A stretch of 39,391 bases of DNA, from positions 1 through 39,391 of the forward strand of contig JAMOQK010000048.1 in assembly GCA_027064045.1 (NCBI GenBank), in the 5' to 3' direction. Within the stretch, counting starts at the first letter, position 1, and each line of letters opens with the position of its first letter. This stretch comes from Sulfurimonas sp. (GTDB lineage Bacteria; Campylobacterota; Campylobacteria; Campylobacterales; Sulfurimonadaceae). Below, piece after piece: positions 1,679 through 32,551 of the stretch. A program made the translations under genes and the position numbers. The notes beneath the pieces are model-generated. The model was not told the origin of the DNA, did no database searches, and saw nothing but the letters and a program-made list of their open reading frames with translations.

Positions 1679-3634
1679 TTATTTCCTTACCATATTTTGA
1701 ATTTTTTTAACAATACTTGGGTCTTCAAGCGTTGATATATCTTGTGTAATCTCTTCATTTTTTGCTATTGCTCTTAAAATACGACGCATAATTTTACCTG
1801 AGCGAGTTTTTGGAAGTCCAGATACAAATACCATGTCATCACAAATAGCGATATTTCCTATCTCTTTTTTTATAACTTCATTTATCGCTTTAACCTCTTC
1901 AACTTCATCTGCCACACCATCATCAGATTTTAAGACGATATATGCAAAAATTCCTTCACCTTTTATGGCATGTGGCTTTGCGACAACTGCAACTTCTGCT
2001 ACATTTGGATGTTTTTTGATAGATGCTTCAACTTCGGCAGTTCCCATCCTGTGACCACTTACATTTATAACATCATCTGTACGACCTGTTATGGTTATGT
2101 AACCATCTTCATCATAAACGGCACCATCTCCTGTAAAATAAACTGCTTTGCCATCTTTTTTTACATCACCAAAGTAAGATTTTACAAATCTTTCTTCATC
2201 TCCCCAAACACCTCTTATCATAGATGGCCAAGGTTTTGTTACACACATGTAACCTTTCTCACCAACTTCAACTCTTTCTCCAGTTTGTGGGTCTAAAATT
2301 TCTCCCATAATTCCAGGTAAAGATAGAGTTGCACATGCTGGTTTAATAGGTGTAGCACCTGGAAGAGGTGATACAATATGTCCACCAGTTTCAGTTTGCC
2401 AGTAGGTGTCAACTATGGCACATTTAGAAGCTCCAACCTCTTCATAGTACCATTTCCACGCAGGTGGGTCTATCGGCTCACCAACTGTTCCTAGCACTTT
2501 AAGTGAACTTATATCATAATTTGCAGGTTCATGCTCACCCATTTTATGAAGTACACGAATAGCAGTTGGAGCAGTATAAAACTGATTAATTCTATGTTCT
2601 TCAACCATTTTCCAAGGTCTTCCAGCATCAGGGTAAGTTATAACTCCTTCAAACATCACAGTTGTAGCACCCATCGCCAAAGGTCCATAAACTATATATG
2701 TATGTCCTGTTATCCAGCCAACATCAGCAGTACACCAGTAGGTATCGTTTTCTTTCACATCAAAAACCCACTCCATCGTCATTTGCGCCCACAAAATATA
2801 TCCTGCTTGGTTATGTTGAACACCTTTTGGTTTACCTGTACTTCCTGAAGTGTAAAGTAAAAAGAGAGGGTCTTCTGCATCCATAACTTCTGCTTCACAT
2901 TTAGCAGATTTTTCTTTTATAAGTTCATTGTATGAGTAATCTCTTCCTGCTACCCACTCAACATCTTCATTATTTCTCTCAATCACTAAAACTTTTTCAA
3001 CAGGAGATTTTTCATCAATCGCAGCATCAACAACTGGTTTTAGCATATATGGTTTCTCTTTTCTAAAAGCTCCATCAGCAGTTATAACTATTTTTGCATC
3101 TGCATCTTCGATTCTGTCTTTTAAAGCTTCAGCAGAAAAACCACCAAAAACGATAGAATGTATAGCACCGATTCTCGCACATGCCAACATTGCATAAGCA
3201 GCTTCAGGAATCATCGGCATATAGATAACAACACGATCACCTTTTTTTACACCAAAATCCTCTTTTAAAAGGTTTGCAAATTTGTTTACATTATAATAAA
3301 GTTCAAGGTAGGTGATAACCTGTTTATCGCCTCTGTCACCCTCAAAGATAATTGCAGCTTTGTTTTTTCTTTTATCTAAATGTCTGTCGATACATTGAGC
3401 AGAAACATTTAGCTTTCCACCTTCAAACCATTTTACAAATGGAAAGTTTGATTCATCCATAACATTAGTAAACGGTTCAATCCAATCGATTTTCTCTTTA
3501 GCATAACCACCCCAAAAACCTTCATAGTCCTCAGTCGCAAAATCTTGTAAAGCTTGATACTCACACATATTTTTAATTCTTGCATTTTGTGCAAATTTTT
3601 TGTTTGGTTTAAAAACTTCTTTTGTATTTGACAT
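1679..3634 (-). CDS. acs: Acetyl-CoA synthetase (AMP-forming)
   Basis: This 651-aa adenylate-forming enzyme activates acetate to acetyl-AMP and then acetyl-CoA. Visible family motifs are the N-terminal ACS segment [15 protein letters not shown], the phosphate loop [11 protein letters not shown], the acetate-site region [10 protein letters not shown], the hinge [14 protein letters not shown], and the C-terminal [14 protein letters not shown], whose lysine is the one acetylated by Pat-type enzymes in characterised homologues. Length is full. The start ATG at 3634 follows GGAGT at a suitable distance. It is divergent from ppiB and upstream of pyrF on the same strand. One copy of the GGCATGTGG motif falls in the conserved PHAIKG segment. 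Confidence 0.97.
1967..1975 (+). repeat. GGCATGTGG motif copy (in acs)
   Basis: Exact 9-mer preceded by T. On the coding strand it encodes PHA within PHAIKGE, a segment I recall as conserved in Acs proteins generally. This copy may therefore be explained by protein constraint. Confidence 0.6.
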
Positions 3635-4283: not shown

Positions 4284-5363
4284 TTAGTCCATATCTGTTG
4301 CAGTGTTGATTCACACTTTTTCCTACAAAAATTACAAAATGATTTTCCACATGAAAAACTTACAGGTTTTTTTTATGACCCTAACATCCATCCATATTCA
4401 GAATACCAATTAAGACTTTTAGATGTTCAAAGAAGTTGTAAAAAACTCGGCATTGAGCTTATAGAGGGTGAGTACGATTATGAAAACTGGTTAAAAGCAG
4501 TTCGTGGACTTGAAAAAGAGAGGGAAAAAGGTGCAAGATGTGAAGTCTGTTTTGATAAACGATTTTTAGTAACTGCAAACAAAGCCTTAGAACTTGGTGA
4601 GACAAGTTTTACAACCACACTTCTTGTCAGCCCCCTTAAATCACAAAAACAACTTAAAAAAAGTGGTGAAGTTTTTTATGAAAAACACGGAGTTGAGTTT
4701 ATCGCTGTTGATTATAGAGCAGGTGGTGGCACACAAGACCAAAGTCGTGTTACAAAAGAGGAGCAACTTTACAGGCAGGATTATTGTGGATGTATCTTTG
4801 GTTTGACTATGCAAAGAGATGAGCAAAACCGTTTGATGGATGAGATGTTTAGCCCTATTTCAAACCAAATTTTACCAGCTTCCATAGAAGAAAGATTAGA
4901 ACTTTACAGATACCGTATGGAACTTGAAGATAACAATATAAAATATAAAATTATAAAAGAGAAGTTTTTAAATTATAGGCAATTTTCTTTTAAACTTATC
5001 CAAAATAAAAAAGATATTATTCCAGCCTATGCACTCATCTACTCAACTTTGCCAAGAAAAAAAACACAGGGTCGCATAGAATTTAAAGATAAAAATATAC
5101 ACTATCTTAACCGTGATGAGGTAAGGTTTGTTACTTTAGAATATTTTAATCTTATATGTCAAACAAATTACAAAAATATAAAAGAGTTGATATTCAATCC
5201 ACCACTTATTCAAAAAGAGTTAAGTTTTAGGGAAGCTTTGGCATGTGGGAATTACAGTTTAACTCCCATAATTATAGTTGAACAAATCCCACATGCCAAG
5301 CTTAGTATAGAGCTTGATGCAAAAACATATGAAGATGTCAAAGAAAAACTAATCGTTTTATAA
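4281..5363 (+). CDS. queH: Epoxyqueuosine reductase QueH, non-canonical start
   Basis: QueH reduces epoxyqueuosine to queuosine in tRNA using iron-sulfur and metal centres. The track shows only the fragment from 4803. The reading frame is open from 4224 and the conserved protein begins near 4281 with ILVHICCSVDSHFFLQ, giving about 360 aa. Visible metal-ligand motifs are the N-terminal Cys-Cys pair, CEVCFDKR and QDYCGC. The C-terminal 160 residues after YCGC are an extra domain beyond the minimal QueH core. No ATG/GTG/TTG is available, so ATC is the likely start. A recent start-codon mutation or sequence error would also explain this. It carries two inverted copies of the GGCATGTGG motif near its end. 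Confidence 0.85.
   Translation: MLVHICCSVDSHFFLQKLQNDFPHEKLTGFFYDPNIHPYSEYQLRLLDVQRSCKKLGIELIEGEYDYENWLKAVRGLEKEREKGARCEVCFDKRFLVTANKALELGETSFTTTLLVSPLKSQKQLKKSGEVFYEKHGVEFIAVDYRAGGGTQDQSRVTKEEQLYRQDYCGCIFGLTMQRDEQNRLMDEMFSPISNQILPASIEERLELYRYRMELEDNNIKYKIIKEKFLNYRQFSFKLIQNKKDIIPAYALIYSTLPRKKTQGRIEFKDKNIHYLNRDEVRFVTLEYFNLICQTNYKNIKELIFNPPLIQKELSFREALACGNYSLTPIIIVEQIPHAKLSIELDAKTYEDVKEKLIVL
5238..5299 (+). repeat. Inverted pair of GGCATGTGG motifs (end of queH)
   Basis: The left arm TTGGCATGTGGGA (5238-5250) and right arm TCCCACATGCCAA (5287-5299) are perfect 13-base reverse complements separated by 36 bases. Both lie inside queH (LACGN and IPHAK) about 65-125 bases before its stop. The pair could form a hairpin in the mRNA. 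Confidence 0.9.
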
Positions 5364-5866: not shown

Positions 5867-6655
5867 TTGAGTAGTAAAATCTCCCCACTCGCTATCATTG
5901 AAGATGGTGCTAAAATCGGAAAAGATGTAGAGATAGGGTCATATTGCCTTATCTCTTCACAAACAACTATTGGTGATGGCACTGTTATAGACCAAAATTC
6001 ATCTATATATGGAAAAACGACTATTGGTAAAAATAACCATATATTCTCACATGCCGTAATAGGTTCTATCCCCCAAGATTTAAAGTTTGCAGGTGAAGAT
6101 GTTGAACTTATTATAGGTGATGATAACAAGATAAGAGAATTTACACTTTTTAATCCTGGAACAAAAGGTGGTGGTGGAAAAACTATTATCGGAAGTCATA
6201 ATCTTTTTATGGGTTATGTTCACATTGGACATGATGTTATTATTGGTAATCATTGTATCTTGGCAAATGCAGCAACTTTAGCTGGGCATGTGGAAATGGG
6301 TGATTATGCCGTTATTGGTGGGATGACACCTATCCATCAGTTTGTTCACATTGGGGACTATGCAATGGTTGCTGGAGCTTCAGCCTTGGCACAAGATGTT
6401 CCACCATTTTGTATGGCAGAAGGAAATCGTGCAACACTGAGAGGTTTAAACCTAACAGGACTTAGAAGAAATCTCAAAAGAGATGAAATAGATGAATTGA
6501 AATTAGCTTATAAAGAGTTGTTTGAAGCTGGTAAGCCACTTAAAGATGTAGCAAGTGAACTTATAGAAAATACACAAAATTATCATGTGCATAATCTTTG
6601 TAATTTTATTTTAAAAACAAAACGGGGAATTCCCTATGAGAGGAAAAATATATGA
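5867..6655 (+). CDS. lpxA: UDP-N-acetylglucosamine acyltransferase
   Basis: LpxA transfers a 3-hydroxyacyl chain from ACP to UDP-GlcNAc, the first step of lipid A synthesis. The 262-aa protein shows the left-handed beta-helix hexapeptide pattern ([19 protein letters not shown]) over residues about 8-190. The catalytic histidine region is [24 protein letters not shown]. The helical C-terminus begins [18 protein letters not shown]. The start is TTG at 5867, close behind fabZ. Its stop overlaps the clpX start (ATGA). One exact motif copy lies at LAGHVEMG and a one-mismatch copy at 6047. Confidence 0.96.
6285..6293 (+). repeat. GGCATGTGG motif copy (in lpxA)
   Basis: Exact 9-mer, but preceded by G rather than the usual T. 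It encodes GHV in LAGHVEMGD, a conserved LpxA segment, so it may be protein-constrained. Confidence 0.55.
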
Positions 6656-13774: not shown

Positions 13775-14184
13775 AAAATCTGGTTATTTTAACACAAACC
13801 GACACGACTGTCGGTTTTGTCTCACAAAATGCAGATAAACTTTATGAGATAAAATCTCGTGATACTTTAAAACCTTTTATAAAAGTTTATACTGATTTTA
13901 AAAGTTTCTTGGCATGTGGAAATAGAATCCCACATGCCAAAAAAAACTTTGTTCGCCGTTCAAAAAAAACATCATTTATTGTAAAAAATAGAGCTTTTAG
14001 AGTTGCAAAAATACCTTTTAGTTGGGTTTATTCAACAAGTGCAAATGAATCCAATCAAAAATTTGATAGAACTTTTTGTGAAGATAAAGCTGATATAATT
14101 ATGGAAGATAAAAGAGGATTTAGTGAAGAAAATTCATCAACTCTGTTTAAAATAAACAACAGCAAAGAGGTTAAAATAAGATGA
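13735..14184 (+). CDS. Short Sua5/YciO/YrdC-like protein
   Basis: At 149 aa this is shorter than canonical TsaC/Sua5 proteins (about 190 or more). Segments match the family pattern: [13 protein letters not shown] for the PTDTVYGL strand, KSRDTLKPF for the K-R-x(n)-KP nucleotide and threonine site, and [14 protein letters not shown] for STSAN-x-SG. This suggests binding of ATP or threonyl-type ligands and perhaps tRNA threonylcarbamoyladenosine chemistry, but the short length and altered residues make catalysis uncertain. The ATG lies inside carB (40-base overlap); a later start would cut into the first strand. It holds a perfect inverted motif pair encoding [11 protein letters not shown]. Confidence 0.7.
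13909..13940 (+). repeat. Inverted pair of motifs forming a hairpin
   Basis: TTGGCATGTGG (13909-13919) and CCACATGCCAA (13930-13940) form a perfect 11-base-pair stem with a 10-base loop. A run of A follows on the plus strand, so transcription on the minus strand would see a T-run before the stem rather than after it. The hairpin lies inside the Sua5-like gene. Confidence 0.92.
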
Positions 14185-14624: not shown

Positions 14625-15184
14625 AGCATATCTCAAGTATAGCAAGTGGTGTAGCCTTAGGTAGTGTTGGTTTGATGATTATGGGTGTTTTGAGTGGATG
14701 TGAAAGATCTCAACAAGAGGCACAAAATAAATTTTTAGTGATACAACAACAGCCAAATGGAAAGTATATAGTTGTTGAGGAGATGCCGACAGAGGGTCCT
14801 AGTCGTGCAATTATTCGTGAAAAAGATGAAAATGGTAAAGTAACCGAAAGGTTTATGAACGAAGATGAGATGAAAGCACTCGCACAGCAAGAGTACAAAA
14901 AAGTACAAAATGGTACAAGCGAAACTATTCAAGATGGTGGAGGAAGTGCAGGGATGGGACTAGCTGGAACTATCTTAGCAGTTGCTGCAGGAAGTCTTTT
15001 GGGAAATATGGTAGGAAATGCTTTAATGAATAACAAAAGTTTTGCTAGAAATTCTGCAAGAACAAATAAAAGTGCTTATTCAAGAAATGCAAAATCAAGA
15101 GCTTCAAAATCAAGTTCAAGAAAAAGTTTTTTTGGAAAATCATCAAGAAGTTCAAGTAGAAGTAGAGGTTTTTTCGGTGGTTAA
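14621..15184 (+). CDS. UPF0323-type lipoprotein
   Basis: The 187-aa product begins with a membrane segment ending in a lipobox-like VLSGC at about residue 26. A polar region with VIQQQPNGKYIVVEEMPTEGPSRAIIREKDENGKV follows, then a glycine-rich segment (GMGLAGTILAVAAGSLLGNMVGNALMNN) and an Arg/Ser-rich tail ending SRGFFGG. This layout matches the UPF0323 family known from Campylobacter and Helicobacter; the function is unknown. It lies immediately upstream of a glutathionylspermidine-synthase-like gene, an arrangement I recall from Campylobacter. Its end overlaps the next start (GTG at 15177). Confidence 0.85.
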   Translation: MKHISSIASGVALGSVGLMIMGVLSGCERSQQEAQNKFLVIQQQPNGKYIVVEEMPTEGPSRAIIREKDENGKVTERFMNEDEMKALAQQEYKKVQNGTSETIQDGGGSAGMGLAGTILAVAAGSLLGNMVGNALMNNKSFARNSARTNKSAYSRNAKSRASKSSSRKSFFGKSSRSSSRSRGFFGG

Positions 15185-16355
15185 ACTAAAAAAAATACTA
15201 CCACTCGATGATAAGACATTAGAAGAGATTGGTTTTAATTGGCACACAGATACAGATGGGACAAAATATGTAAGTGATGAGTTAATAGAGATAACTCAAG
15301 ATGAAGCTCAAGCATATTATGAAGCAACAAATAAGCTTTATGATATGTTTGTTGAAGCTGCTGAATATGTGATAGAAAATAATCTTTTCTTTGAACTTGG
15401 TATCCCTTTTAATCTTGTTGATACTATTAAAAAAAGTTGGGAAAATGATGTTCATTGGCATATTTATGGACGGTTTGATTTAGCAGGTGGTATAGATAAT
15501 AAACCTATAAAACTTATAGAGTTTAATGCAGATACACCGACAGCACTTTTTGAAAGTGCTTTACTTCAGTGGGCTATTTTAAAGCATAACAATATGGATG
15601 AAGATAAACAGTTTAACAACATATATGAAGCAATCACAAATAACTTTAAAAGGCTTATAACTCTTTTTGAAGATACTGATGAATTTGAAAAGAGTTATGA
15701 TGGTTGGAAGATACTTTTTTCATCTATATCTAACAATGAAGAGGAAGAAGCAACAACAAAACTACTACAACAGATGGCAACAGATGCCGGTTTTGCAACA
15801 CATTTTGAATATTTGGAAAACATAGAGTTTGATGAAAATGGAATCTATGATGCTGATGGTAATAGTTATGAATATTTTTTCAAACTATACCCTTGGGAAG
15901 ATATAGCTATAGATGAACCAGAGTTGGCAACAACACTAAAAAATATCATACAAAATCAAAAAGCCATTATCTTAAATCCTGCATATACACTTATTTTTCA
16001 ATCAAAAGGGATTATGAAAATATTATATGACCTTTTTCCTGAGTCACCATATCTTTTAAAAACTTCTTTTGAAGAGATGAAGGGAGTTAAACAGGTACAA
16101 AAGCCACTATTTGGTAGAGAGGGTGCAAATGTAAAAATAATAGAGGCAGATGGTAGTGTATCTTCACAAACAGACGGTGCTTATGATAACTTTGCAAAAA
16201 TATATCAAGAGTATGTACCTTTTGCACAAGATGACTTCAAGAATAAATATCAAGCTGGTGTATTTTTTGCATATGAGGCATGTGGAGTTGGTTTTAGAAA
16301 AGGTGGAGAAATCTTAGACAACATGAGCAAATTTGTTGGGCATGTTATAGTATAA
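15177..16355 (+). CDS. Glutathionylspermidine synthase-like ATP-grasp ligase
   Basis: The track starts this ORF at 15042, out of phase inside the lipoprotein gene. The repetitive Gln/Glu-rich first 45 residues there are a shadow. The likely start is GTG at 15177 (VVKLKKILPLDDKTLEEIGF), giving 392 aa. Family features are HWHIYGRFDLAGG, the metal-site stretch KLIEFNADTPTALFESALLQW, NPAYTLIFQSKGIMKILYDLFP, and KPLFGREGANVKII. These match the C-terminal synthetase domain of GspS and its YgiC/YjfC relatives, which join a peptide carboxylate to an amine using ATP. The true substrate is unknown. One motif copy lies near the end (YEACGVGF). Confidence 0.87.
   Translation: MVKLKKILPLDDKTLEEIGFNWHTDTDGTKYVSDELIEITQDEAQAYYEATNKLYDMFVEAAEYVIENNLFFELGIPFNLVDTIKKSWENDVHWHIYGRFDLAGGIDNKPIKLIEFNADTPTALFESALLQWAILKHNNMDEDKQFNNIYEAITNNFKRLITLFEDTDEFEKSYDGWKILFSSISNNEEEEATTKLLQQMATDAGFATHFEYLENIEFDENGIYDADGNSYEYFFKLYPWEDIAIDEPELATTLKNIIQNQKAIILNPAYTLIFQSKGIMKILYDLFPESPYLLKTSFEEMKGVKQVQKPLFGREGANVKIIEADGSVSSQTDGAYDNFAKIYQEYVPFAQDDFKNKYQAGVFFAYEACGVGFRKGGEILDNMSKFVGHVIV
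16277..16285 (+). repeat. GGCATGTGG motif copy
   Basis: Exact 9-mer preceded by A. It encodes ACG in YEACGVGF near the end of the glutathionylspermidine-synthase-like gene. Confidence 0.8.
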
Positions 16356-19721: not shown

Positions 19722-19951
19722 TAACCTTTTGGCATAAGTTTAAATCTTGTGCTATTTACTTCAACTACATTCTGCTGAGCTACTTTGGCATGTGGGTTTT
19801 GTTTTATTTGTGTATTAAAACTTTTCTTATCGATCACTTCAACATTGCGAAAAAGTGTAGCAGCTACAAAAAAAAGTATCATAATTACAACTACACTAAC
19901 ATATAAAAGTATATAGTTCCTTATGTGACCTGTTTCAAAAGGGTTATTCAT
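19718..19951 (-). CDS. Small single-pass membrane protein
   Basis: This 77-aa product has a strong membrane helix (YILLYVSVVVIMILFFVAATLF, residues about 13-34) and a short polar tail (VEVNSTRFKLMPKGY) predicted outside. A GGA-containing ribosome-binding site precedes the ATG. It is convergent with exbD and divergent from tpx. No family is recognised. The tail contains the motif-encoded NPHAK. Position beside exbBD might suggest a TonB-like accessory, but it has no proline-rich spacer or TonB C-terminal domain, so that is not claimed. Confidence 0.62.
   Translation of the reverse strand: MNNPFETGHIRNYILLYVSVVVIMILFFVAATLFRNVEVIDKKSFNTQIKQNPHAKVAQQNVVEVNSTRFKLMPKGY
19787..19795 (+). repeat. 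GGCATGTGG motif copy
   Basis: Exact 9-mer preceded by TT and followed by G. On the minus strand it encodes PHA in the tail of the small membrane protein. Confidence 0.85.
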
Positions 19952-24495: not shown

Positions 24496-25232
24496 TGTAT
24501 AAACAACCTCAAATATATTACTTAACTTATGAGAAATTATTGGATGATAATATCTTTAGGCATATGATAGCAGATGAACATAATAGCTACTATTGGTGTG
24601 ATGATTGGAGTGAAGAACTCTATATTGCTCTTGCTCAAAAGGGATTTATATCTACTACTTATGACACAAAAGATGGTTTGGTTTTACTTCCTGAGCTGGA
24701 GTTTGATTATGGGATTTTGGATTTTGATAATCTTCACATATCTAAAAAAGTAAAAAAACTTTTAACTAAAAATGATTATAGATTTAGTATAGATGAGAGA
24801 TTTGATGAGGTGATAGAAAAGTTTGGTGATTTTCACAAAGACAACTGGCTAAAAGGTAGATATGTAGAACTTTTTAAAACGCTTCATTCTAAAAAATATA
24901 ATAATTTCAGAACCATATCAGTAGAGATATGTTCAAATGATGGGGAGTTGATTTGTGGGGAAGTTGGTTATATCATAGGTGAAATTTATACAAGTTTGAG
25001 TGGATTTAGTTCCCATGAAAAAAAGTATAATAACTATGGAAATCTTCAACTCGTTTTGTTGGCAAAATATCTACAAAAAAATGGTTTTGCTTTTTGGAAT
25101 CTAGGTCATCCCCACATGCCATACAAGATAAAACTCGGTGCTAAAGTTTATAAAAGAACTGAGTTTCTACAAAGGTGGAACGAGTTTTGTATTTTACCAA
25201 TTATTAACCTCACTGATATATACTTTCGCTAG
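24495..25232 (+). CDS. Leucyl/phenylalanyl-tRNA-protein transferase-like
   Basis: This 245-aa protein resembles Aat of the N-end rule pathway, which moves Leu or Phe from tRNA to N-terminal Arg or Lys. Matching segments are YYWCDDWSEELYIALAQKGFIST, LDFDNLHISKKVKKLL, FGDFHKDNWLKGRYVELFKTLHSK, SVEICSNDGELICGEVGYIIGEIYTSLSGF, and the C-terminal LGAKVYKRTEFLQRW. The N-terminal GIFPW-type motif is altered, so it may be a divergent acyl or aminoacyl transferase. It is one base overlapped with the lipoprotein upstream. The motif copy at 25112 lies in its conserved-looking GHPHMPYK. Confidence 0.72.
   Translation: MYKQPQIYYLTYEKLLDDNIFRHMIADEHNSYYWCDDWSEELYIALAQKGFISTTYDTKDGLVLLPELEFDYGILDFDNLHISKKVKKLLTKNDYRFSIDERFDEVIEKFGDFHKDNWLKGRYVELFKTLHSKKYNNFRTISVEICSNDGELICGEVGYIIGEIYTSLSGFSSHEKKYNNYGNLQLVLLAKYLQKNGFAFWNLGHPHMPYKIKLGAKVYKRTEFLQRWNEFCILPIINLTDIYFR
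25112..25120 (-). repeat. GGCATGTGG motif copy
   Basis: Exact CCACATGCC on the plus strand, followed by A (so T precedes in motif orientation). It is read in a different frame (HMP) from most other copies, which argues against a single peptide explanation. Confidence 0.85.
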
Positions 25233-27139: not shown

Positions 27140-27544
27140 ATGGATAATAAAATTACAGATATACCTTTGCATGATATAAAACCATTATTGGAGATAAAAG
27201 AGTACTCATTTTATTACCTTTTAGGTGGGAGTATTTTAGCACTTTTATTGGCATGTGGGATTATATTTTTGATATATAGATATGTAAAAAATAGAAATAA
27301 ATTTAATATAAGAAAAGAGAATTTAAAACTTTTGAAATCTATAAATTTAAAAGATACAAAAAAAGCAGCCTATGATATAACCTTTTATGGTGTATCATTT
27401 AAAGATGATAGCCCTAAACATCTTCAAATGTATAATGATTTGGTATCAAGGCTTCAAGATTATAAATATAAGCAAGAAGTTGAACCTATGGATAAAGAGA
27501 CTTTAGAATATATTCAACTTTACAAGGAGATGTGCGATGTTTAG
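27140..27544 (+). CDS. Small membrane protein of the Bat operon (DUF4381-like)
   Basis: The 134-aa product has one membrane helix (YYLLGGSILALLLACGIIFLIYRYV, residues about 22-46) and a cytoplasmic helical tail (DTKKAAYDITFYGVSF, then YKQEVEPMDKETLEYIQLY). The N-terminal DIPLHDIKPLLEIKEYSFYYL precedes the helix as in DUF4381 proteins, which occupy this same place between DUF58 and BatA. Its end overlaps the BatA start by 8 bases. The motif copy encodes LACG inside the membrane helix. Confidence 0.78.
   Translation: MDNKITDIPLHDIKPLLEIKEYSFYYLLGGSILALLLACGIIFLIYRYVKNRNKFNIRKENLKLLKSINLKDTKKAAYDITFYGVSFKDDSPKHLQMYNDLVSRLQDYKYKQEVEPMDKETLEYIQLYKEMCDV
27250..27258 (+). repeat. GGCATGTGG motif copy
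   Basis: TTGGCATGTGGGATT matches the extended consensus fully. It encodes LACG within the membrane helix of the DUF4381-like protein. Confidence 0.9.
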
Positions 27545-28463
27545 TGGAATCTATTTTCAATATCCATATCTTTTAGCTTTAATTATATTGTTTATGATTT
27601 GTGAGAGATTTTGTAAGATGAGATTACCATCTATATATTTTCCACATGCCAAAGAGTTTATGCAACAAGGTATATCAAGCTCAAAACTTTTGTTTTTGTT
27701 GAAATGGATTGGGATAATTATGCTTGTTGTCTCCATAGCTTCACCTGTAAAAGATGAACCATATGAGATTGAACCAAAACATGGGCATGAGATAGCACTC
27801 ATTTTAGATGCTTCACAATCTATGAGTACGAGAGGCTTTGACAGAGCTAATCCAAGTTTGTCAAGATTTGATGTGGTAAAAGAGATAGTTAGTGATTTTA
27901 TATCTCAAAGAAAGCATGATAACATAGGTCTTGTAGTTTTTGGGGCTTACTCTTTTATAGCTTCTCCATTAACATATGATGCAAATATTTTAAACAAAAT
28001 AGTATCTCAACTTTATGTAGGTATGGCTGGAAAATATACTGCTCTTTATGAATCATTGGCTCAGGGTATAAACCTTTTAAAGATGAGTAAATCAAAAAGT
28101 AAAGTGATGATACTTTTAACTGATGGTTATAACACGGCTAGAAATCGATTTCCATTTGATGTTGCTATAGATATGGCAAAAAAAGAGAAAGTGAAAATAT
28201 ATCCTATAGGTATAGGTTCACCAAATGAATATAATCAAAGAGTGTTACTAAAGATTGCTAAAGAAACAGGTGGTGTGGCTTATGGAGCTTCTAGTGCGAG
28301 TGAACTTCAAGAGGTTTATAAGCAGATAGATAAACTTGAAAAAGTTGAGATCAAAAGTGAGACATTTACATATATGAAATATTATTATATGTATCCGTTG
28401 TTTATATCATTTTTTGCACTTATGTTTTATGTATATCTTAGAAATAAAAGGGGTCATAATTGA
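27537..28463 (+). CDS. BatA-type VWA membrane protein
   Basis: The 308-aa protein has two N-terminal membrane segments (YPYLLALIILFMICERF and LLFLLKWIGIIMLVVSIAS), a VWA domain with MIDAS motif LILDASQSMS and LTDGYNT, and a C-terminal membrane helix (MYPLFISFFALMFYVYL). BatA proteins sit in the inner membrane with the VWA domain in the periplasm and have been linked to stress tolerance and envelope maintenance in Bacteroides and Leptospira. One copy of the motif lies between the first two helices (FPHAKEF). Confidence 0.92.
   Translation: MFSGIYFQYPYLLALIILFMICERFCKMRLPSIYFPHAKEFMQQGISSSKLLFLLKWIGIIMLVVSIASPVKDEPYEIEPKHGHEIALILDASQSMSTRGFDRANPSLSRFDVVKEIVSDFISQRKHDNIGLVVFGAYSFIASPLTYDANILNKIVSQLYVGMAGKYTALYESLAQGINLLKMSKSKSKVMILLTDGYNTARNRFPFDVAIDMAKKEKVKIYPIGIGSPNEYNQRVLLKIAKETGGVAYGASSASELQEVYKQIDKLEKVEIKSETFTYMKYYYMYPLFISFFALMFYVYLRNKRGHN
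27642..27650 (-). repeat. GGCATGTGG motif copy
   Basis: TTCCACATGCCAAAG on the plus strand. It encodes FPHAK in the short loop between the first two membrane helices of BatA. Confidence 0.9.
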
Positions 28464-30340
28464 GTTTTTTACATCCTGAATTTTTATATTTTATGTTGGT
28501 GCCTTTGTTTATATTTTTTGGATTACTGCTTACTAAAAAAGAGTCTCAAATGCATTTTTTTAGTGAAGAGGTTATAGCTAAACTTCGTGTTGGCTCAAGT
28601 GGTTTGAGCATGAAAGTTAGAAATATTTTGTTTTTATTTATTGGATTTTTTATGATTGTTGCACTTGCAGAGCCTGTGATAAATAATGGTGTCATAAAAG
28701 TACAAGCAAAAAGTGCTGACATCATGATAGCTTTTGATATATCTGACTCTATGTTAGCAAGGGATGTTTATCCAAACCGTTTAGAATTAGCAAAACAAAA
28801 AGCGATAGAACTTTTGAAATTAGCACCAAACGAGAGGATTGGGGTAGTGGCTTTTGCTAAAAATTCATATCTTGTTTCTCCAATGAGTTTTGACCATGGT
28901 GCGGTAAATTTTTTGCTTCATCAGTTAGATACTACAAATATAACAGAAAAAGGAACAAATTTTCTTTCTATGTTAGAAGTGGTTGACAAGAGTATAAAAA
29001 ATGATAAAAAATATCTTCTTATCATCAGTGATGGTGGGGATAAAGATAGTTTTAAAGATGAGATAGCATTTGCAAAAGAAAAAAATATTACTATCTTTGT
29101 TTTAGGTGTTGGGACAAAAAAAGGTTCACCAATCAAGAAAAAAGATGGTTCGTTTATAAAATATAAAGGAGAAATTATTATCTCAAAATTAAATGATAAC
29201 ATCTCAGAATTAGCAACTGCTACAGGTGGTGTTTATATTCAAAATGTAAAATCTGATAAGGATATAAAAACTATGCTTAAAGAGATGGAGTCTAAAAGCA
29301 AGAAAAAAGAGTTAAAAAGTGAAGAGGTACATAGATATATAGCACTTTTTTATTATCCTCTTGGATTGGCTTTGTTTTTACTACTTATAGCTACAAGTTC
29401 ATTTAGAAAAAGTTCCAATGCTAGTGTGTTGGCTGTTATTTTGTTCTTATTTGTGGTTCCACATGCCAAAGCTGGTGCATTTGACTTTATGAAACTAGAT
29501 GATGCTAAAAAAGCTTATAACTCAGGTGAGTACGAAAAATCTGCAAAACTTTATGAAGAATATGCAAAAAAGAGTGGTAATTCAAAAGCATATTATGATG
29601 AGGGAAATGCATTTTATAAATTAAAGCAATATAATAAGGCTATAAAATCTTATAAAAGTGCAAAATTTCAGGATAAGGTTTTAAAAGCTAAAAAACTTGC
29701 AAATATAGGAAATGCTTATGCAAAACAGTTGAAACAAAAAGACTTAAAACAAGCGATAAAATCTTATGAAGAGTCGTTAAAACTTAAAGAAGATAAAGAT
29801 GTCAGGGAGAATCTTCAAGAGGTTAAAAAATTGCTAAAAAAACAACAGCAAAAATCTAAAAATAACAAAAATAACAAGAAAAAGAAGGATAAAAACAAAG
29901 AGAATCAAAATAAAGAGAATCAAAATAAAGATGGTAAGTCTAAAAAGTCTAATAATAAAGACAATAAAAATAAAGATGCTAAGTCTAAAAAGTCAAAGAA
30001 AAAAGACAATAAAAACAAAGACAGTAAGTCCAAAAAATCTAGTAAAAAGGATGACAAAAATAAAAAAGAGAATAAATCCAGCAAATCTGATAATAACAAA
30101 AAAGATAAAAAATCAGATAAAAATTCTAAAAAATCACAAGGTGATAAAAAGAAAAAACAAGATTTAAAAAAGCTAGATAAAAATCTCCAAAATCAGAAAC
30201 TCTCTTGTTCTAAAGAGAAGATGAGTGAAAAAGAGGAAGCTAAATGGTTAAAACAGCTAAATCTACAAAAAAATACATATCTATATAGATTAAACAATCA
30301 AAAACCTAAAGAGGAGAACAACGATGAAAAACCTTGGTAA
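28460..30340 (+). CDS. BatB/BatC-type fusion: VWA, TPR and Lys-rich tail
   Basis: This 626-aa protein joins functions that are often separate BatB and BatC genes. Residues 1-80 carry two membrane helices. The VWA domain has MIAFDISDSM and LLIISDGGDKD. A helix follows (YIALFYYPLGLALFLLLIATS), and another segment (VLAVILFLFVVPHAKAGAFDF) has a signal-peptide-like look. TPR repeats run from about residue 345 to 455 (AYYDEGNAFYKLKQYNKAIKSY). A lysine/asparagine-rich tail with three 15-residue repeats precedes a conserved end (EEAKWLKQLN). TTG at 28460 overlaps the BatA stop. Confidence 0.9.
   Translation: MSFLHPEFLYFMLVPLFIFFGLLLTKKESQMHFFSEEVIAKLRVGSSGLSMKVRNILFLFIGFFMIVALAEPVINNGVIKVQAKSADIMIAFDISDSMLARDVYPNRLELAKQKAIELLKLAPNERIGVVAFAKNSYLVSPMSFDHGAVNFLLHQLDTTNITEKGTNFLSMLEVVDKSIKNDKKYLLIISDGGDKDSFKDEIAFAKEKNITIFVLGVGTKKGSPIKKKDGSFIKYKGEIIISKLNDNISELATATGGVYIQNVKSDKDIKTMLKEMESKSKKKELKSEEVHRYIALFYYPLGLALFLLLIATSSFRKSSNASVLAVILFLFVVPHAKAGAFDFMKLDDAKKAYNSGEYEKSAKLYEEYAKKSGNSKAYYDEGNAFYKLKQYNKAIKSYKSAKFQDKVLKAKKLANIGNAYAKQLKQKDLKQAIKSYEESLKLKEDKDVRENLQEVKKLLKKQQQKSKNNKNNKKKKDKNKENQNKENQNKDGKSKKSNNKDNKNKDAKSKKSKKKDNKNKDSKSKKSSKKDDKNKKENKSSKSDNNKKDKKSDKNSKKSQGDKKKKQDLKKLDKNLQNQKLSCSKEKMSEKEEAKWLKQLNLQKNTYLYRLNNQKPKEENNDEKPW
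29459..29467 (-). repeat. GGCATGTGG motif copy
   Basis: TTCCACATGCCAAAG on the plus strand, sharing 15 bases with the copy at 27642. It encodes VPHAKAG just after a membrane helix of the BatB/C protein. Confidence 0.9.
29930..30064 (+). repeat. Three tandem 45-bp repeats
   Basis: Units start at 29930, 29975 and 30020 and encode DGKSKKSNNKDNKNK, DAKSKKSKKKDNKNK and DSKSKKSSKKDDKNK. They lie in the disordered, strongly basic tail of the BatB/C protein and could vary in copy number between strains. Confidence 0.85.
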
Positions 30341-31724
30341 AATACTATTAATACTTTTTTTATTTCCACATGCCATATTTGCTTCTGTAAGAGCAACACT
30401 TGATTCAAACTATGTGGAGCTTGGTGATACTGTTACATACTCATTAAATATATCTGGTGAAAATATTAAAAGACCAAATATACAAGCTTTATGTGATAGT
30501 GATGTAATCTCTAGCAGTTCACAAAGAAGCATACAAATCATAAATGGTGATATTAAAAAAAGTTATATTTTAAGTTATAAATTTACACCTCAAAAAAGTT
30601 GTGAGATACCACCACTTAGCGTTGAAGTAGATGGTAAAGTTGAAAAAACAAATAGCGTCAGTTTAAAGATAGTTTCTGGTGTCGTAAAAAAAGATGCTTC
30701 ATTTATGTTGAATTTAACAGCTGATAAAAAAGAAGTATTTGTCGGTGAACCTTTTAAAGTTACACTTTTATTTAAACAAAGGGAGGATGCTCAAGCAGTT
30801 GATTCTCAATTTATAGCACCAAAATTAAAAGGTTTTTGGATAAAAAAAGAGTCAAAACCTGTACGATATAGAGATGGAAGATATGTTATAACGAAGTTAG
30901 TTTATACTATGGCAGCACAAAGAGTAGGGGATTTGACAATTTCAAAAGCTCAAATGAGGATAGCTTCAAGGGCAAACAGTAGAGATAGTTGGGGTGCTTG
31001 GATACCACAAGTAAAATGGAGAAGTTATTTCTCAAACTCTTTAGATATTAAAGTAAAAGAGTTGCCAAATGGTGTAAGTCTTATTGGTGATTTTAGCATA
31101 AAAGCAACTGCTGATAAAGCTCAAATCAACTCAAATGAGGCTTTAAATGTAGAGGTGGAGGTTGATGGAATTGGAAATTTAGAAGATATAAAAAGTTTTA
31201 AACCATATATAGATGGTGTGAGTGTTTTTGATGAAAAAATTGTTATAAAAGACAATAAATTAACACAAAAACTCGCATTTGTCTCAGATAAAGATTTTAT
31301 AGTTCCACCATTTACCCTAAAATATTTTGATACAAAAACAAAGCAGATAAAAACAATACAAACAAAAAGTATTTCTGTGAAAGTTATGGGTGTAAAAGAG
31401 AAAACACCACTAGTTATAAAACATTCAAAAGAGGTTGAAGTAAAACATGAAACTTCAAAAATCTTGCTTTTGGTCTCGTTTTTAGTTGGTCTGGCATGTG
31501 GGATTGTTTTGATGTTGTTAAAATCTATAAAATTTAAGAAAAAAGAAACATCATTAGATATTAAAGATGAAAAACTACTTTTGATGAAACTTTTACCATA
31601 TAAAGATGATGAAGAGGTTAAAAAGATATTTGATATGTTAGAAAATAATATCTACTCAAATACTAAACAAAAGATAGATAAGAAAAATTTAAAAGAAATA
31701 ATTAAAAAATATAATATCTCTTAG
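30324..31724 (+). CDS. BatD-like protein
   Basis: The 466-aa protein has a signal peptide (ILLILFLFPHAIFAS), then a large periplasmic beta-sandwich region starting VRATLDSNYVELGDTVTYSLNISGENIKRPNI, with a second repeat at DKKEVFVGEPFKVTLLFKQ and a third at ADKAQINSNEALNVEVEVDG. A C-terminal membrane helix (ILLLVSFLVGLACGIVLMLLKSI) and a short cytoplasmic tail follow. This is the BatD layout. It overlaps the BatB/C end by 17 bases. Two motif copies lie in it, one at the signal-peptide end and one in the membrane helix. Its stop overlaps tyrA by 4 bases. Confidence 0.9.
   Translation: MKNLGKILLILFLFPHAIFASVRATLDSNYVELGDTVTYSLNISGENIKRPNIQALCDSDVISSSSQRSIQIINGDIKKSYILSYKFTPQKSCEIPPLSVEVDGKVEKTNSVSLKIVSGVVKKDASFMLNLTADKKEVFVGEPFKVTLLFKQREDAQAVDSQFIAPKLKGFWIKKESKPVRYRDGRYVITKLVYTMAAQRVGDLTISKAQMRIASRANSRDSWGAWIPQVKWRSYFSNSLDIKVKELPNGVSLIGDFSIKATADKAQINSNEALNVEVEVDGIGNLEDIKSFKPYIDGVSVFDEKIVIKDNKLTQKLAFVSDKDFIVPPFTLKYFDTKTKQIKTIQTKSISVKVMGVKEKTPLVIKHSKEVEVKHETSKILLLVSFLVGLACGIVLMLLKSIKFKKKETSLDIKDEKLLLMKLLPYKDDEEVKKIFDMLENNIYSNTKQKIDKKNLKEIIKKYNIS
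30366..30374 (-). repeat. GGCATGTGG motif copy
   Basis: TTTCCACATGCCATA on the plus strand. It encodes FPHA at the end of the BatD signal peptide. Confidence 0.9.
31493..31501 (+). repeat. GGCATGTGG motif copy
   Basis: CTGGCATGTGGGATTG fits the extended consensus. It encodes LACGI within the C-terminal membrane helix of BatD, the same peptide as in the DUF4381-like helix. Confidence 0.9.
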
Positions 31725-32551
31725 TCTAAAATATCGTGTAGTTTTTTACCATTTTTCATGTCTTGGTAAACTTTATTCCACTCATCATTTTGGATGCTTT
31801 TTTTGAGGTGGCTCAGTTCGGTTTCAAAAAGTTCTATCGCTTCAAGAATGTTGGATTTGTTTTGTTTAAAAACATCTTCCCACATATCTGGCGAACTTTT
31901 TGCTAATCGACTCATAGAACGAAAACCACCTGCTGCAAGGGCTAAGATATTGTTCTTGTTCTCTTGTTTCATAACTGTATTTGCGAGTGAATATGATATG
32001 GCATGTGGCATGTGGGATATAAAGGCAGCGTGACGGTCATGCTCGTGAGATTTCATAAAATATTTTTTCATATTCAATGATTTAAACATCTTTTTTGCCA
32101 CTTTGCACTGATGTTCACCACTCTCCTCTAAATCACATAAAACAACGCTTTTGCCATCATACAAACCATCTATTGCAGCATGTGGACCAAAATTTTCCGT
32201 TCCTGTCATTGGGTGTGCCGCTATAAAATTTTTTCTGATTTGTTTTGGTACAGATGAGACTATAAGCTCTTTTGTACTTCCTAAATCTATGATAGTTGTA
32301 TCTTCATCAATCTCTGTTAGATTTTTTAAAGCAGAAATAATACCATTTACCGGTATGGCTAAAACAATAATATCGTACTTTTTTACATCTTCAAATTTTA
32401 TGATTTTATCTACTAAATTTAACTTTATCGCATCTTGTTGATGTCCTTTGTTGTGATCACTCCCAACAACTTTATCGATAAAATCAAACTTTTTTAAACT
32501 AAGTGCAAGTGAGCCACCCATAAGTCCAAGACCAACTATCGCTACATTCAT
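31721..32551 (-). CDS. tyrA: Prephenate dehydrogenase
   Basis: TyrA converts prephenate to 4-hydroxyphenylpyruvate for tyrosine synthesis using NAD. The 276-aa protein has the Rossmann start VAIVGLGLMGGSLALSLKK, DLGSTKELIV, the substrate-site block FIAAHPMTGTENFGPHAAIDGLYDGKSVVLC and the C-terminal HMPHAISYSLANTV and FRSMSRLAKSSPDMWEDVF. No chorismate mutase or ACT domain is attached. It is convergent with BatD and divergent from the frameshifted gene. Two overlapping motif copies lie at HMPHAIS, partly conserved in the family. Confidence 0.95.
   Translation of the reverse strand: MNVAIVGLGLMGGSLALSLKKFDFIDKVVGSDHNKGHQQDAIKLNLVDKIIKFEDVKKYDIIVLAIPVNGIISALKNLTEIDEDTTIIDLGSTKELIVSSVPKQIRKNFIAAHPMTGTENFGPHAAIDGLYDGKSVVLCDLEESGEHQCKVAKKMFKSLNMKKYFMKSHEHDRHAAFISHMPHAISYSLANTVMKQENKNNILALAAGGFRSMSRLAKSSPDMWEDVFKQNKSNILEAIELFETELSHLKKSIQNDEWNKVYQDMKNGKKLHDILD
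32000..32015 (+). repeat. Overlapping tandem pair of GGCATGTGG motifs (in tyrA)
   Basis: ATGGCATGTGGCATGTGGGAT contains two exact 9-mers at 32000-32008 and 32007-32015 that share GG. On the minus strand they encode HMPHA in two different frames. A one-mismatch copy lies at 32177-32185. Confidence 0.9.

Follow-up and report, generated by a model that had tools for sequence, protein, structure and literature searches.

A Dispersed Sequence Motif of Sulfurimonas as a Probable DNA Uptake Sequence with Dialects

Introduction

Uptake sequences have been reported in the Neisseriaceae and the Pasteurellaceae only (PMC12616744), and their hallmarks are high copy number, inverted repeats that act as terminators, and dialects that follow phylogeny (PMC12616744, PMC3630211). 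In Campylobacter jejuni, which belongs to the same phylum as Sulfurimonas, no uptake sequence has been identified (PMC3458841); a methylated RAATTY site is required there for telling self-DNA apart during uptake, and the pilin-motif protein Cj0683 is required to start DNA uptake (PMC10046745). We found no report of an uptake sequence in Sulfurimonas, Campylobacterota or Epsilonproteobacteria in the literature covered, which left out many subscription journals and preprints. Other short sequences to be considered here are the Chi site of E. coli, GCTGGTGG, and HIP1, the highly iterated palindrome of cyanobacteria.

Here, we describe a dispersed motif of Sulfurimonas, whose consensus from aligned copies is (A)TT(T/C)CCACATGCCAA(R). 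Judged from its sequence behaviour and by analogy with the known systems, it is probably a DNA uptake sequence (DUS) with dialects in a competent Sulfurimonas lineage, which would entail binding, a bias in uptake and a receptor. The motif resembles the Neisseriaceae DUS, which is read by the minor pilin ComP, in its length of ~10–13 bp, in hundreds of copies on both strands, in genic copies and inverted terminator pairs, and in lineage-specific dialects (PMC3630211, PMC12616744). Unlike that system, it occurs in another phylum at lower density, has another sequence without the CTG core and sister words that share little core, and its receptor is at the stage of a candidate. With the uptake signal sequence (USS) of the Pasteurellaceae, it shares a 9-bp core, high copy number and inverted terminator pairs; the sequence is, however, unrelated, and its A/T-rich flank consensus directly adjoins the core, no distant A/T tracts being seen in the aligned copies. 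C. jejuni is alike in phylum, in discriminating self-DNA and in the pilin gene that immediately precedes priA, but RAATTY is short and its use is methylation-based.

Materials and Methods

The window is the whole stretch of DNA analysed, 39,391 nt of Sulfurimonas sp. (GCA_027064045.1, contig JAMOQK010000048.1). Relatives of its BatA protein likewise pointed to Sulfurimonas as the genus. Its own genome, G000, comprises 1.53 Mb and is 75% complete with 4.4% contamination. Several of the compared genomes are metagenome assemblies; each genome was read in part, with open reading frames taken as genes. For G036, G035 and most non-carriers, the data consisted of thin samples or pattern counts only. 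Retention of 9-mers was determined for pairs of carriers, on reciprocal best hits aligned by codon, with all other 9-mers of unchanged peptide as controls.

Copy Number and Strand Behaviour of the Motif

The motif is real and genome-wide, far beyond chance. In the whole of G000, CCACATGCCA was found 418 times (211 forward, 207 reverse) and the reversed control word twice; a 364-kb portion held 120 copies, where a third-order Markov model predicts 0.3. In four species, the motif was by far the top k-mer. Enrichment was confined to seven Sulfurimonas species, with 972 copies in G420, 770 in G308, 541 in G402, 418 in G000, 114 in G035 and 63 each in G361 and G036; every other genome searched, from a set of ~400 in the order plus additional congeners, had 0–10 copies. 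Perfect copies outnumbered all 27 one-mismatch variants summed, 141 versus 78 in the sampled G000 DNA and 141 versus 59 in G308.

Copies were divided ~50:50 between strands. A Chi-like recombination signal or an FtsK-type orienting sequence is brought to mind by a short, over-represented word that is G-rich on one strand, and GCATGTGG, the G-rich strand, agrees with E. coli Chi at 6/8 positions. However, on a 420-kb contig of G402, which is largely one GC-skew domain, 71 versus 80 copies were found by strand, that is, without the orientation bias along the replichore that characterizes Chi; neighbouring copies had no common orientation, inverted pairs were favoured, and the motif was absent from sister species. 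We regard this explanation as very unlikely.

Motif Copies in the Window

The window holds 16 copies of CCACATGCC or its reverse complement GGCATGTGG (Table 1), 7 of them within 27250–32015. Every copy and peptide that the first-pass annotation had listed over the Bat operon and tyrA was confirmed, as was the absence of an exact copy from clpX, mreB, mreC, carB and bamA (0 found versus 3.5 expected, P(0) = 0.03). That this cluster is notable, on the other hand, was not borne out: the probability that any such span holds 7/16 copies was 0.06, or 0.18 with the tyrA tandem counted once, and 7–9 copies per 4.77 kb were reached on other contigs, equalling or exceeding the Bat/tyrA density. We thus rejected the Bat operon as a special location; its copies are ordinary examples of a genome-wide motif.

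Table 1. Motif copies and inverted pairs located in the window.
Feature	Position	Strand	Remarks
Motif copy, acetyl-CoA synthetase-like gene (PHA)	1967..1975	-	
Inverted pair (LACG...PHAK), gene upstream of fabZ-like gene	5240..5297	.	
Motif copy, lpxA-like gene (GHVE)	6285..6293	-	
Inverted pair GGCATGTGG-aaatagaatc-CCACATGCC, Sua5/YrdC-like gene	13911..13938	.	
Motif copy, ORF 15042-16355 (EACG)	16277..16285	-	
Motif copy, intergenic	19787..19795	-	
Motif copy, leucyl/phenylalanyl-tRNA transferase-like gene (PHMP)	25112..25120	+	
Motif copy, DUF4381-like gene (LACG)	27250..27258	-	Aligned position also holds a copy in G420 and G402; G308 has just the 8-mer
Motif copy, batA (YFPHAK; YFPH universal in Sulfurimonas)	27642..27650	+	G420 and G402 have a copy at this site
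Motif copy, batB/C-like gene (PHAK ahead of conserved AG..D)	29459..29467	+	G420 and G308 have a copy at the corresponding site
Motif copy, batD signal-peptide end (LFPHAIF)	30366..30374	+	
Motif copy, batD C-terminal helix (LACG)	31493..31501	-	
Two overlapping motif copies, tyrA (SHMPHA, conserved PDH_C peptide)	32000..32015	-	

Selection at the Level of DNA, Not of Protein

The proposal that selection acts on the DNA and that conserved protein is avoided held genome-wide. Motif density was 0–0.25/kb in genes of at least 85% identity and 0.4–1.0/kb in those of 60–75%; the most conserved genes had nearly none, and the least conserved genes also had few. In comparison with non-carriers and the weak carrier G361, 42% of the amino acids were identical at motif codons, 64% within the 10 flanking residues and 70% over the remainder of these genes. 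Furthermore, where the peptide was unchanged between carriers, the exact 9-mer was kept at 77–100% of the sites, as against 18–24% for control 9-mers. When the Bat operons of relatives were compared, motif sites lay at the same aligned places in G000, G420, G402 and G308.

The further suggestion that copies use tolerant segments stood only in part, since it failed for tyrA and partly for BatA. The tyrA tandem lies inside HMPHAISYS, which was invariant in 4/4 orthologues compared, and YFPH of BatA was kept in every relative compared, carriers and non-carriers alike. As for whether LACG and PHAK are kept in motif-free relatives, which would count against selection on the DNA, LACG of the DUF4381-like protein occurred only in carriers, whereas YFPH of BatA was universal and PHA of BatB/C was present in a few motif-poor relatives.

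PHA and LACG were the commonest readings of the motif, as a codon or peptide preference would produce, and a dispersed mobile repeat might likewise scatter one word over a genome. Against both, all six reading frames and intergenic DNA were used, the peptide changed along with the motif, and aligned positions were held without any larger repeat unit, so that we consider either source extremely unlikely.

Motif deserts comprised rpoBC, ribosomal genes, atp genes, hydrogenase genes and one island of G402, the genes being named by eye from protein sequences. The island (L118–L120, G402:C20:179968-209663) is a 29.7-kb stretch without the motif that carries helicase- and defence-like genes, and is possibly acquired DNA.

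Intergenic Copies and Hairpins

Although copies lie mostly within genes genome-wide, the intergenic share in G420, G308 and G402 was 2.8–3.3 times that expected, with a peak of 2.6–5.3/kb between convergent genes. Inverted pairs spaced by 12–30 bases numbered 4, 19, 9 and 10 in four carriers versus 0.4–1.1 expected, the 4 (versus 0.4 expected) being those of G000. In G420, G308 and G402, where 9–19 such pairs compare with 0.5–1.1 expected, most inverted pairs lay between a few and some tens of bases past stop codons. The terminator-like hairpin trait is thus strong in these three species and weak in G000, where intergenic enrichment was not observed (9/141).

This lack of intergenic enrichment is what would be expected if the motif were the relic of an ancestral uptake sequence, non-functional now in the window's species, and the weak carrier G361, with its few copies, resembles decay. 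However, the excess of perfect over one-mismatch copies in G000 (141 versus 78) implies recent maintenance, and we give the relic explanation little credence.

Different Words in Sister Species

Non-carrier samples of 34–117 kb were scanned for dispersed words. The 9-mer CCTCACGCA (L219–L223) was found 327 times in the genome of G060, 266 in G111 and 169 in G020, and at a background of 0–15 in the other Sulfurimonas searched. Counts of TTACATGTA, whose palindromic form TTACATGTAA was scored on both strands, were 1029 in G011, 888 in G161, 669 in G216, 407 in G367 and 157 in G237. TCCACATGCT was found 188 times in G036. Different Sulfurimonas species thus have CCACATGCC, CCACATGCT, CCTCACGCA or TTACATGTA, as dialects would, and we infer that CCTCACGCA and TTACATGTA do the same job as the main motif. 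Neither showed intergenic enrichment in the samples read, and G012 had no dispersed word in 117 kb. Two further candidates, TGATCGCA (G031, L224–L228) and AGATGC(A/T)A (G350, G272, G379, G396), were rejected as dialects because they were weaker words with strong reading-frame bias. The strand counts of TTACATGTA in G216 were uneven (252/417).

To our knowledge, known uptake sequences are not palindromic, and TTACATGTAA therefore counts against the DUS reading. A palindrome, as HIP1 is, would suit a site for a methyltransferase or another DNA-binding housekeeping protein, whose density has nothing to do with sequence-specific uptake. The location of most copies inside genes is in keeping with such a site, and a methylated motif is plausible in the phylum because self-recognition in C. 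jejuni needs methylated RAATTY (PMC10046745). On the other hand, the main motif, CCACATGCC, is no palindrome, its consensus extends into A/T-rich flanks, uptake sequences are known to form paired hairpins past stop codons, and the words differ between close relatives; a methylation or housekeeping site is accordingly judged unlikely.

We return to the DUS reading. If the words have replaced each other between species, the specificity of the receptor would have changed more than once, and the several hundred copies in the genome along with it. Whether Sulfurimonas has an uptake-sequence system independent of those of the Neisseriaceae and Pasteurellaceae, in which three or more almost unrelated words, a palindrome among them, swap between species of one genus with such joint turnover, appears to us evenly balanced.

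Competence Machinery and Proposed Mechanism

Genes for comEC (18/18), dprA (14/14), a secretin (8/8) and pilins were found in G000 and its relatives, the other carriers included. They were equally frequent in species without the motif, indicating that competence genes do not track it. With DUS and USS, then, the motif has in common its copy number, the lack of strand or replichore preference, inverted hairpin pairs, dialects and the presence of competence machinery.

Two or three pilins are encoded directly upstream of priA in carriers and non-carriers. Their N-terminus is near-invariant, their C-terminal half very variable and their Cys pair mostly conserved. A model of one of them (pLDDT 82) was pilin-like, showing a long helix at the N-terminus next to a small sheet, and had no match among solved structures in the PDB. 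C-terminal variation was not cleanly sorted by motif or dialect, and no clear-cut link of one pilin to the dialect was seen among the priA-linked pilins compared. By their position, which is that of Cj0683 in C. jejuni, the priA-linked pilins would nevertheless be the first receptor candidates.

In the mechanism that we propose, the putative uptake word of the carriers, ATTTCCACATGCCAAG, would be bound by a surface pilin of a competence pilus or pseudopilus, and conspecific DNA would preferentially be pulled in and then recombined. Transformation bias together with selection would keep hundreds of genomic copies, which would settle at places tolerated by the protein and, in some species, double as terminator-like hairpins. 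If this is true, the uptake-sequence strategy evolved again in a third unrelated group, sulfur-oxidising environmental bacteria, and a third receptor could be compared with ComP. Word changes between sister species of the genus would make receptor/genome co-evolution testable, and a route to deliver DNA into Sulfurimonas would be suggested.

Origin of the Motif

In a six-protein tree, G420, G402, G308 and G361 formed one clade, and G000 and G036 were placed elsewhere with non-carriers in between. Given this scatter, the motif is either old and was then lost, or was gained twice. We favour an old origin over a double gain on the strength of the Bat operon sites, which align among G000, G420, G402 and G308.

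Two related metagenome-assembled genomes (L007, L009) had 4 CACATGCC each in 21 kb and one full CCACATGCC between them; CACATGCC is perhaps a decayed or variant motif there. In G361 (L093–L095), a repeat with GTCATTGCGAG was present at several places, some of them adjoining runs of N. Furthermore, an array of units with GACACAGATAC, in 44 copies, occupied bases 18–980 of L074 (G420:C50), at the start of the contig.
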